From assembly GCA_016926265.1 (NCBI GenBank), contig JAFGOW010000080.1, positions 1 to 38,062 on the forward strand: a stretch of 38,062 nt of DNA. Direction: 5' to 3'. Shown piece after piece: positions 1 through 4,906 of this stretch. Every line of letters begins with the position of its first letter. Position 1 is the first letter of the stretch. This DNA is from Deltaproteobacteria bacterium. GTDB taxonomy: Bacteria > Desulfobacterota > Desulfuromonadia > Desulfuromonadales > JAAYDE01. A program made the translations under genes and the position numbers. The notes beneath the pieces are model-generated. The model was given only the letters and a program-made list of their open reading frames with translations, was not told the DNA's origin and did not search any database.

Positions 1-432
1 CATTTAAGTTGAAAGCCTAGGGCTTAGAAGGCCGCAGTGTTGGTGGATTTTGAGGAGGAAGTAGGCGACATCCCTGTAGCCATAAGCAGGGACCCATTGG
101 GGTCAGGTCTTGTCTTTTGAGTCTAAGACGGCAGATTCAACTTTCAAGTGCACCGCTAGCAGGGACCCATTGGGGTCAGGTCTTGTCTTTTGAGTCTAAG
201 ACGGCAGATTCAACTTTCAAGTGCACCGCTAGAAACTTCGGTAGATTCAACTTGGGCCTAAGGGGCCAAATTCTTGTTTTTCAGCGACCTGCTGAGGCGT
301 TTCGCGGGGGAGAGCCCCTCGGGCGCCAGCAGTACCGGGATGCCGGCTCCGTTGTCCCTCTCTTTCCCTCTATTCCTGACCGAAATGGTCATGATAAGCT
401 GAGTGGGCAGGAAAGGTCTGGAGGGAGGCGGT
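1..432. other. Non-coding left edge with mobile-element-like debris
   Basis: I see no supported gene here. Reading frames that cross the segment have no ribosome-binding site and run through the tandem repeat. Besides the 73-bp duplication, short TTCAACTT/AAGTTGAA words recur near 5-13, 128, 201 and 246. This would suit the decayed end of a transposable element. The ribosome-binding site of the next gene lies at 423-428. Confidence 0.5.
85..232. repeat. Two tandem 73-bp direct repeats
   Basis: Positions 85-157 and 158-230 are identical 73-bp units placed head to tail, and the first two bases of a third unit (AG) follow. Each unit contains GGGGTCAGGTCTTG and then TCAACTTTCAAGTGCACC. The first motif resembles sequence I recall flanking IS200-like/RAYT transposase genes in related genomes. 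The second resembles an insertion-sequence end. Neither identification was checked. Only two copies exist and there is no spacer, so this is not a CRISPR array. Confidence 0.9.
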
Positions 433-1524
433 ATGGCGGTTTCTTGGCAACGATCATGGAAGCAGCGGCTGGCCGGCGCGGTCACAAGCGCGGCGGCCGG
501 CTGGTGTCTGGGGCGGTGGCGGGAGGAGTTCGCCCCGGGCCGGGACCTGCCCGGTTCGGGGGGCGCTGATTTCTCCTCCGAGGTGGCGGCGACGGAAACC
601 CCCGGAGGGATCCGCCAGCTCCGCTATGGCCGTTACATCGTAAACGACGGGCATCTGGTCATCGAGGAGGGGGTGGAGAACTGGCTGGGAAGCGGTGGTG
701 CACTGCCGACCTCCACCCTGGTCGTGACCGACACCGTATCCGGATGCCGCCTCGATCTGGGGGAACTGCTCCCCGCGGAGTGCCGGTTTTCCCCCTCGGC
801 CCTGATCAAGGTGGGGGTCGATTTCCACCGCGAGGCCCGGCGCATCCGTTCGCGGTTGCTCCCGGTCGATCTCAGGAGCTATTCCGGCGCCGCTGCCGAC
901 GGCGAGTTCTACTTCAACCGCGAGGCGAAGCGGGTGGCCTACGGAAACCTGACGACGCCGGGCGCCTTTCTCTACCTGCTGCACGAAATCGCCCACGCCT
1001 GGCAGTTCGCCACCCGGCAGCGGTCGGCCAAAAAGGATTTCTTCACCCTCTTCAACTTCCTCGCCACCAGGCTGCACAATCTGGGGGTGCGCATCGAAGA
1101 GAAGCGTTGCGGCGCCATCTCCGAAGAGCGGCTCCATCACTTCATCGGTCTGGCCCGGGGGCGGCTGGCCGAGAAGGAGATCGCCCTCGACATCGAAAAT
1201 GTGACCGGCCGCTGCCCGGTCCCGGATTTCGGCCATTCCGTCTTCAAGGCCCGCAGCGGCAAGCGGTTCTCCTTCAGGAGTCCGGTTTTCGAACAGGCGC
1301 TGGCCGCTTACGTCGGGGCCGAGCGGGACGGCTGGGCTTTCGCCCTCTGGGCGTTGCGGCTGCTGCGCTGCCGGGGGATCGATCTGGAGCCGGGTCTGCG
1401 CAGCCTGACCGCGGCCCGAACCTGCATCTATCCCTTTCTTGAGCAGTACCAGGAGAGCATCGACAGCCAACTGGAGATGGGAAACGGCCGGGTCCGGTTC
1501 GTGAGGAAAGCGCCCTGCCACTGA
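433..1524 (+). CDS. Uncharacterised protein with HExxH metalloprotease-like motif
   Basis: I do not recognise a named family. The product is 363 aa with the zinc-protease signature HEIAH at residues 184-188, preceded by a short hydrophobic stretch (FLYLL) as is usual for such helices. This suggests a metal-dependent peptidase or SprT/gluzincin-like fold, but I cannot place a third metal ligand. There is no convincing signal peptide or membrane segment, so a cytoplasmic location is likely. I chose the ATG at 433 because GGGAGG at 423-428 sits just upstream. A GTG at 403 in the same frame has no such site. The gene is convergent with the AsmA-family gene, with 32 bp between stop codons and no clear terminator. 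Confidence 0.65.
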   Translation: MAVSWQRSWKQRLAGAVTSAAAGWCLGRWREEFAPGRDLPGSGGADFSSEVAATETPGGIRQLRYGRYIVNDGHLVIEEGVENWLGSGGALPTSTLVVTDTVSGCRLDLGELLPAECRFSPSALIKVGVDFHREARRIRSRLLPVDLRSYSGAAADGEFYFNREAKRVAYGNLTTPGAFLYLLHEIAHAWQFATRQRSAKKDFFTLFNFLATRLHNLGVRIEEKRCGAISEERLHHFIGLARGRLAEKEIALDIENVTGRCPVPDFGHSVFKARSGKRFSFRSPVFEQALAAYVGAERDGWAFALWALRLLRCRGIDLEPGLRSLTAARTCIYPFLEQYQESIDSQLEMGNGRVRFVRKAPCH

Positions 1525-3557: not shown

Positions 3558-3757
3558 GGAATCCTCCTGCCGGGGCGGAACCCGGAATCCGGAATGGTTG
3601 CGAAAATTATAATTATACCCCCGGTTTTCCTCCCGGCCACGGTTCAGGGGACGGTTGGGGAGCCGGGGGAAAGAGATTTTTCCCTTGGCTGAAAAATTGC
3701 AAAATGTCGGTTCCCGTGGAGATCGTCAGACGAAGGGAATCCGGAAAGGTTGAATCT

Positions 3758-4432
3758 ATGAAAATGGTCATCATCGGGGGGGGCAGAGCGGCAAGGATTA
3801 TCATTGATCACTTCGCCACATTGAAGGGGTATGAGATCGCCGGTGTGGTCGATCCCGTTGCCGAGGCTCCCGGCATGGTCCGGGCCCGCGAGCTTGGGAT
3901 CGAGACGACCGCTGACAAGGCCGCCATGATCGGCAAGAAGGACGTCCAGCTGGTTTTTGAGCTGACCGGCCGCAAGGAGGTCGAAGAGGAGGTCCAGAGC
4001 CTGGTCCGCCCCGACCAGCAGCTGATCCCTTCCTTGGGCGCCAAGATCGCCTGCGATCTCATCGTCGCCCATGACGGCCAGAGTCAAAAACTCGCCGAGC
4101 AGATTTCCCATCAATTTTCTCTGGCCATTCAGAAGATCGAGGAAACCCTGACCGGAATGAAGGATTCGGGTTCCCAGATGAACCACCTGCTGCGGCACGG
4201 CTATCTGGTCAGCCTCAATGCCAAGGTCGAGGCGGCCCGCGCCGGCCAGGCCGGCAAGGCTTTTTCGGTGGTGGTGGACGAGGTGCAGCGGCTGGTGGAG
4301 CAGTTGCAGGGCGCCCTTCAGCACATTCTGGCCACTTCCGACATCACCGAGGCCACTCTCGAAGAGCTGCGGAGCGCCCAGCATGACCTGGAAGCCTCCT
4401 TCGACGGGGGCCGGAAGGTTGCCAGGGGGTAG
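3758..4432 (+). CDS. Rossmann-like domain fused to chemoreceptor signalling tip
   Basis: A 224-aa soluble protein. The N-terminus (VIIGGGRAAR, residues 4-13, then a beta-strand ending GVVDP near 29-33) looks like a Rossmann dinucleotide- or nucleotide-binding fold. Residues about 105-215 are helical. Residues 150-181 match the conserved hairpin tip of methyl-accepting chemotaxis proteins, with LNAKVEAARAG followed by FSVVVDEVQRL. There is no membrane segment and the methylation helices are missing or very short. Aligned to E. coli Tsr, the trimer-contact residues L380, N381, V384, E385 and R388 are kept while F373 is Arg. I chose the ATG at 3758 because of GGAAAGG at 3742-3748; the ATG at 3704 has no ribosome-binding site. 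Coupling a redox or metabolite signal to CheA/CheW is an inference. Confidence 0.8.
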   Translation: MKMVIIGGGRAARIIIDHFATLKGYEIAGVVDPVAEAPGMVRARELGIETTADKAAMIGKKDVQLVFELTGRKEVEEEVQSLVRPDQQLIPSLGAKIACDLIVAHDGQSQKLAEQISHQFSLAIQKIEETLTGMKDSGSQMNHLLRHGYLVSLNAKVEAARAGQAGKAFSVVVDEVQRLVEQLQGALQHILATSDITEATLEELRSAQHDLEASFDGGRKVARG

Positions 4433-4509
4433 GGGCCGTTCCCGCCCAGTCCCTGGAATTTTTCGACGTTGCCGTCGCCGAAGTTTTTTCCGTCGCCTTT
4501 CCTGACCGC

Positions 4510-4546
4510 GTGCCGGGTCGGACTCGGGACCGCCCCCCGGCACTTT
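4510..4546 (+). terminator. Weak candidate terminator hairpin
   Basis: GTGCCGGG at 4510-4517 pairs with CCCGGCAC at 4536-4543, followed by only three T residues. It lies after the chemoreceptor-like gene and just before the tRNA-His promoter. The 18-base loop and short T run make this weak. Confidence 0.3.
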
Positions 4547-4593: not shown

Positions 4594-4670
4594 GGTGGGT
4601 GTAGCTCAGCTGGCAGAGCGCTGGATTGTGGCTCCAGGTGTCGAGGGTTCGATCCCCTTCACTCACCCCA
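4594..4670 (+). tRNA. tRNA-His (GTG)
   Basis: A complete cloverleaf. The anticodon loop TTGTGGC carries anticodon GTG, and the T arm has GGTTCGATCC. The acceptor stem 4595-4601 pairs with 4660-4666 with one G-T wobble. The extra 5' G typical of tRNA-His (G-1 at 4594) faces C73 at 4667. The 3' CCA is encoded at 4668-4670. Confidence 0.97.
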
Positions 4671-4678
4671 ATTTGAAT

Positions 4679-4740
4679 CCCCCGCCCTTCCTTTTCCTCC
4701 TCAAAAAAATTTTGCGGCGGAAGAGGTGGGGTTTTTAGTT
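4679..4740 (+). terminator. Probable rho-independent terminator after tRNA-His
   Basis: CCCCGCC and TTCC in 4680-4691 pair with GGAA and GGTGGGG in 4719-4731, with one internal mismatch, and TTTTTAGTTTT follows from 4732. The loop is A/T-rich. The position directly after tRNA-His fits the end of that unit. Confidence 0.6.
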
Positions 4741-4823
4741 TTAAGCCGTCATCCTTGAAACGTTGCGGCTTTCTGAAACGGGGAGCGCCCGGCCCATCCG
4801 GCCTTTCGGCCCGACCTGTCCTC

Positions 4824-4906
4824 GCGAGAGTGGCGGAACTGGCAGACGCACTGGACTTAGGATCCAGCGGGCAACCGTGGGGGTTCGACTCCCCCCTCTC
4901 GCACCA
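4824..4906 (+). tRNA. tRNA-Leu (TAG)
   Basis: An 83-base class II tRNA. The anticodon loop CTTAGGA gives anticodon TAG. There is a variable arm around CGGGCAACCG and a T arm GGTTCGACTCC. The acceptor GCGAGAG pairs with CTCTCGC, and CCA is encoded at 4904-4906. It lies 122 bp before the trigger factor gene. Confidence 0.97.

Follow-up and report, generated by a model that had tools for sequence, protein, structure and literature searches.

Energy taxis is usually ascribed to flavin, haem or respiratory-chain sensing, and the receptor Aer is a full-length, membrane-bound protein with an FAD-PAS domain. The Rex repressors, whose output is DNA binding, use a non-catalytic Rossmann domain to sense NADH/NAD+. 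Among the soluble chemoreceptors, we know of no Rossmann or other sensor domain in the one from Thermotoga maritima (3g67/3g6b, 213 aa), nor of a Rossmann domain in the N-terminal part of YfmS (286 aa; model 9a72 with CheW). YfmS is a soluble chemoreceptor of Bacillus subtilis (PMC7542364), and in Escherichia coli Aer reportedly informs the chemotaxis system of the redox state inside the cell (PMC9668731), an internal-state input like that of the receptor proposed here. Furthermore, the E. coli protein Tls is a truncated Trg-like receptor which sequesters FlhDC and represses flagellar genes (PMC12623472).

The protein described here is encoded in the window, by which the whole analysed stretch of 38,062 nucleotides is meant. 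It carries a Rossmann domain in front of a chemoreceptor signalling tip, a soluble architecture which an earlier note on this DNA had proposed and which is now backed by sequence, predicted fold and conservation. It is soluble like the T. maritima receptor and similar in size to YfmS, and both are matched by both fold models; however, the hairpin of the T. maritima protein is longer. Like Tls, it is a receptor fragment that lacks the ligand-binding domain of receptors of its type and has been kept as a functional protein, but Tls lacks a Rossmann domain and represses flagellar genes instead of signalling to CheA. With modest confidence we favour the reading that the window protein is a short soluble chemoreceptor in which a Rossmann-type nucleotide sensor would bias CheA through the receptor array; the ligand and the coupling are those suggested by comparison.

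The gene and its Rossmann domain

The open reading frame at 3758-4432 (+) encodes 224 aa without an internal stop, and its GC content per codon position (0.68/0.38/0.80) follows the pattern of coding DNA. The gene is real and its product is a soluble protein of 224 residues. The start at 3758 was preferred over an upstream ATG at 3704 because GGAAAGG lies 8 nt before the former. A chance frame or antisense artefact is ruled out by homology and by the codon usage pattern, both of which point to the plus frame; the reverse frame 3644-4543 (299 aa) merely overlaps it. The features are as follows.

3743..3749, plus strand: Shine-Dalgarno-like GGAAAGG, read in the sequence 8 nt upstream of the ATG
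3758..4432, plus strand: gene for the 224-residue Rossmann–chemoreceptor-tip protein, stop codon included (translation; full-length relatives)
3758..4072, plus strand: Rossmann domain, residues 1-105 (AlphaFold2 model, Foldseek to NAD-binding domains, conservation)
3776-3793, plus strand: glycine loop GGGRAA, residues 7-12 (conservation)
3851-3853, plus strand: acid ending strand 2, D32 (conservation)
4082..4426, plus strand: chemoreceptor signalling hairpin, residues 109-223 (Pfam MCPsignal, model, relative's model against the E. coli receptor tip)
4193..4288, plus strand: hairpin tip, residues 146-177, equivalent to Tsr 373-404 (position-wise comparison with 74 ordinary receptors)

The AlphaFold2 model of the window protein (mean pLDDT 92) begins with a five-strand alpha/beta domain; the linker is weaker, with pLDDT 74 and 81 in the blocks spanning residues 101-120. 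As the earlier note had supposed, the predicted domain resembles an NAD-binding one: its nearest match in Foldseek is the NAD domain of the acylating acetaldehyde dehydrogenase 1nvm (rmsd 2.2-2.6 A, 99 columns), and a profile search likewise points to this enzyme. By fold and profile together, the closest solved NAD-binding domain is thus that of DmpF (1nvm), an enzyme with a catalytic domain. The window protein has none; the receptor hairpin follows residue 105 in place of the dehydrogenase C-terminal catalytic domain. PYCR1 also ranks high in Foldseek but is uninformative, its alignment of 280 columns having an rmsd of about 20 A, and to Rex, which belongs to a different Rossmann subfamily, there is a weak profile match. 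The Pfam model GFO_IDH_MocA (PF01408) scores 20.0 bits in the window protein, below its cut-off of 24, which is exceeded in all five Bacillota relatives examined (26.7-28.7 bits). Neither Pfam nor NCBIfam holds a family of its own for the Rossmann-tip protein; their models recognise it only as one of the known dehydrogenase or CoA-binding types.

The loop GxGxx[G/A] followed by an acid at the end of strand 2, as in PF01408-type domains, is present as GGGRAA at residues 7-12 and D32. Its GxG is invariant in 34 of 34 aligned domains, the strand-2 acid is Asp in 33 and Glu in the remaining one, and a conserved TG corresponds to residues 70-71. An acid at this position favours NAD(H) over NADP(H). 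Judged by sequence and model, the domain is of the dinucleotide-binding type; lacking a catalytic partner domain, it would act as a nucleotide sensor, with NAD(H) as its likeliest ligand. The same architecture might read CoA/acyl-CoA, NADP(H) or a sugar nucleotide instead. Such a ligand would fit the CoA_binding score of one member (L064; 30 bits against 22.3), a weak PglD_N score in a single member and the third loop residue, which is Ala in the window (GGGRAA) and Cys in 8 of the 34 domains. We regard it as unlikely, given the acid in all 34 domains and the NAD-dependent enzymes as best structural matches.

Within the window's phylum, the same module also stands N-terminal of PAS-histidine kinases, in some of them as a tandem pair, and of HisKA_3 kinases. 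Because it is used in this modular way with kinases and cyclases, the module is taken for a sensor and not for an enzyme remnant, and the comparison suggests a portable intracellular sensor. A Rossmann domain is nowhere mentioned in a survey of the sensors that act on c-di-GMP signalling (PMC8846402). A tentative extension, which we hold less probable than the receptor function itself, is that the chemotaxis array reads the cytoplasmic NAD(H) pool directly through this portable module, so that motility, gene control and c-di-GMP would share one redox input.

Tandem Rossmann pairs precede PAS in six histidine kinases of the phylum (L055, L057, L063, L065, L073, L075). In other proteins (L051, L052, L054, L058, L066, L078) the module either precedes GAF-GGDEF or separates it from a LuxR-type HTH; a direct metabolic input to c-di-GMP is possible in these GGDEF fusions. 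Stand-alone Rossmann proteins of about 130-140 aa were found in the window's order (L045, L046, L047, L048, L049) and have a conserved tail HP(D/E/N)D(V/T/I)G(V/I)G.

The receptor hairpin and its proposed action

Pfam MCPsignal (PF00015) matches residues 124-205 of the window protein with 43.8 bits (curated cut-off 34.6). The AlphaFold2 model is helical from residue 109 to 223, with arms of about 55-58 residues, and membrane segments are absent. Neither a methylation-site motif nor a CheR-binding pentapeptide was found when the window protein was searched for them, in line with the earlier description of a tip without membrane segments or long methylation helices. An antiparallel hairpin had also been expected. 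In the model of one family member (from genome G026) it superimposes on 6s1k_E, the receptor in the core signalling unit of E. coli, with 1.7 A over 97 columns and a TM-score of 0.84 by target length; the window model's own hairpin matches the soluble Thermotoga receptor 3g67 only loosely in Foldseek. From the models, an antiparallel hairpin is probable in the window protein itself.

For the tip residues, 74 ordinary receptors from related genomes served as reference (Tsr numbering). The trimer-contact residues L380, N381, V384, E385 and R388 are kept, as had been claimed, in the form of L153, N154, V157, E158 and R161. The reported change of F373 to Arg is correct as well (R146), but it is no notable defect: Arg is ordinary at this position (18 of the 74 receptors), which rules out the substitution as a lesion. 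Other residues of the window protein occur in none of the 74, among them 372 Leu, 374 His, 375 Gly, 376 Tyr, 378 Val, 383 Lys, 400 Val and 404 Gln. The QTN segment (374-376) reads HGY and so lacks T375, which all 74 ordinary receptors have; the other Desulfobacterota fusions of the window's order have NLE there. In E. coli three strong CheW contacts are made by receptor residues R394, E402 and R404 (PMC6954272), and these positions are K167, E175 and Q177 in the window protein, of which Lys at 394 is shared with 63 of the 74 receptors and Gln at 404 with none. The Desulfobacterota relatives in the order have R at 394 and K at 404, with Ala at 402 in one group. Among 17 Bacillota relatives, 394 is R/K in 16, 402 is E in 17 and 404 is R/K in 15, and the tips of Bacillota members are mostly near canonical, with longer arms. 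The window tip is, by its sequence, more divergent than those of its relatives (QTN lost, R404 replaced by Gln), which may mean weak coupling or a different action, and coupling to CheA is less certain here than in the Bacillota relatives.

These departures bear on a second alternative, in which the hairpin would bind CheW or receptor trimers without controlling CheA, while the Rossmann domain gates its availability and so alters the size or stability of the array. The truncated hairpin without methylation helices speaks for such a decoy or cap, as do the changes in QTN and at 383, 400 and 404, which are partly seen in the Desulfobacterota relatives too. A pure decoy would, however, need neither the near-canonical tips nor the longer arms of the Bacillota proteins, and we consider it somewhat less likely than a different ligand; to the window's own divergent tip it may apply.

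In the favoured reading, a chemoreceptor that biases CheA, a cytoplasmic nucleotide, most likely NAD(H), would bind the Rossmann domain, and the short linker at about residues 100-109 would relay the bound state to the truncated hairpin. The hairpin would join the CheA/CheW baseplate, probably as part of mixed trimers of dimers that it forms with ordinary receptors, and would shift the kinase activity of CheA. Membrane anchoring would not be needed, because soluble receptors are known to build CheA/CheW arrays (PMC3964821). Since methylation sites are absent, the protein could presumably not adapt by itself; it would rather impose a steady CheA bias reflecting the internal metabolic state, with adaptation left to full-length neighbours. 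A bare NAD-type Rossmann input would make it testable whether the array senses the nicotinamide or CoA pool directly. Proteins of this kind may let cells navigate according to the state of their own metabolism.

Distribution, origin and link to chemotaxis genes

The architecture had been called unusual; instead of a rarity, it proved to be a widespread family. In the window's order, 11 of 136 genomes, its own included, match the Rossmann profile strongly, each through a short protein in which the module is fused to the tip; one further fusion (G239) comes from another class. Altogether the phylum has yielded eleven such short fusions besides that of the window. Eight pairs of relatives from the order gave dN/dS values of 0.05-0.12, low in both domains, and by this measure the relatives are under purifying selection. 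Through a plasmid collection, a relative of 260 residues was reached in the cultured species Acetoanaerobium noterae (L161:1447-2229), and 398 Bacillota genomes were therefore scanned. Full-length matches (E below 1e-37) were found in 59 of them, about one in seven, in open frames of 225-367 residues. An oddity of one genome is thus ruled out by relatives in the order, the phylum and the Bacillota. With P0001 as sole query the genome-contig scan gave three matches to the tip region only, loci from viral contigs matched chiefly at the tip, and among the matches listed for the phage collection there were only partial ones (36-56% of the query). A description of the architecture was not found in a literature search whose coverage leaves many subscription papers outside. 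The window protein is a divergent example of a soluble receptor type that is widespread, carries a dehydrogenase-like sensor and is so far apparently undescribed.

The eleven other Desulfobacterota fusions cluster firmly in trees. The window protein stands on a long branch beside the tandem-Rossmann histidine kinases in the Rossmann tree, and long branches prevail in the tree of the tip. In AU tests, placing it with the Desulfobacterota clade (p 0.05) or with the Bacillota (p 0.03) was borderline rejected in both cases, and a single clade of all fusions was not rejected (p 0.15). As far as the sequences go, both an independent origin of the window fusion and a fast-evolving family member are possible.

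The window genome (G000) has two CheA, six matches to the CheW domain and receptors. CheA is present in all 12 carriers tested from the window's phylum, but its co-occurrence in the window's order (p 0.65) is uninformative because 131 of 136 genomes there have CheA. In the Bacillota it is found in 59 of 59 carriers against 329 of 398 genomes overall (Fisher p 7.6e-6, the genomes not being independent). Homologues in genomes without che genes had been named as a point against the signalling role; every genome in which a full-length homologue was found, in the phylum or among the Bacillota, also has CheA. A second genome of the window's genus that was searched has neither CheA nor CheW, no receptor match and no fusion, and the same applies to one genome of the window's family. 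Across genera the fusion genes have no common neighbours and share no neighbourhood with che genes; function could not be read from gene neighbourhood, since the neighbours differ among genera.

The lack of adjoining che genes, together with the loss of invariant tip residues and the precedent of Tls (PMC12623472), would suit a receptor-derived coiled coil that has been reused outside the array for another partner. We hold this improbable, as every Bacillota carrier has CheA and the relatives largely keep the trimer and CheW contact positions. Least probable of all is a decaying relic in a family that is losing chemotaxis: the very long branches in the Rossmann and tip trees, the tip residues unseen in ordinary receptors and the genus member without CheA, CheW and receptors would agree with it, but the frame is intact, with a ribosome-binding site and coding-like composition, the fold is predicted with confidence (pLDDT 92), and the window genome keeps CheA, CheW and receptors.

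A receptor gene is kept near the fusion in one genus only, g24 (L124, L129, L130), where it is divergent; in L129 it encodes sCache_2-HAMP-MCP. A DnaJ-like gene lies between fusion and receptor gene in L124 and L129, and genes reading as nifH and nifD come next in both. Elsewhere in the window, two long frames overlap on opposite strands, 403-1524 (+), which has no Pfam match, and 454-1521 (-). Just downstream of the fusion gene, tRNA-His (gtg) and tRNA-Leu (tag) are located at 4595-4906, followed by frames which read, to judge from their sequence, as tig, clpP, clpX and lon.
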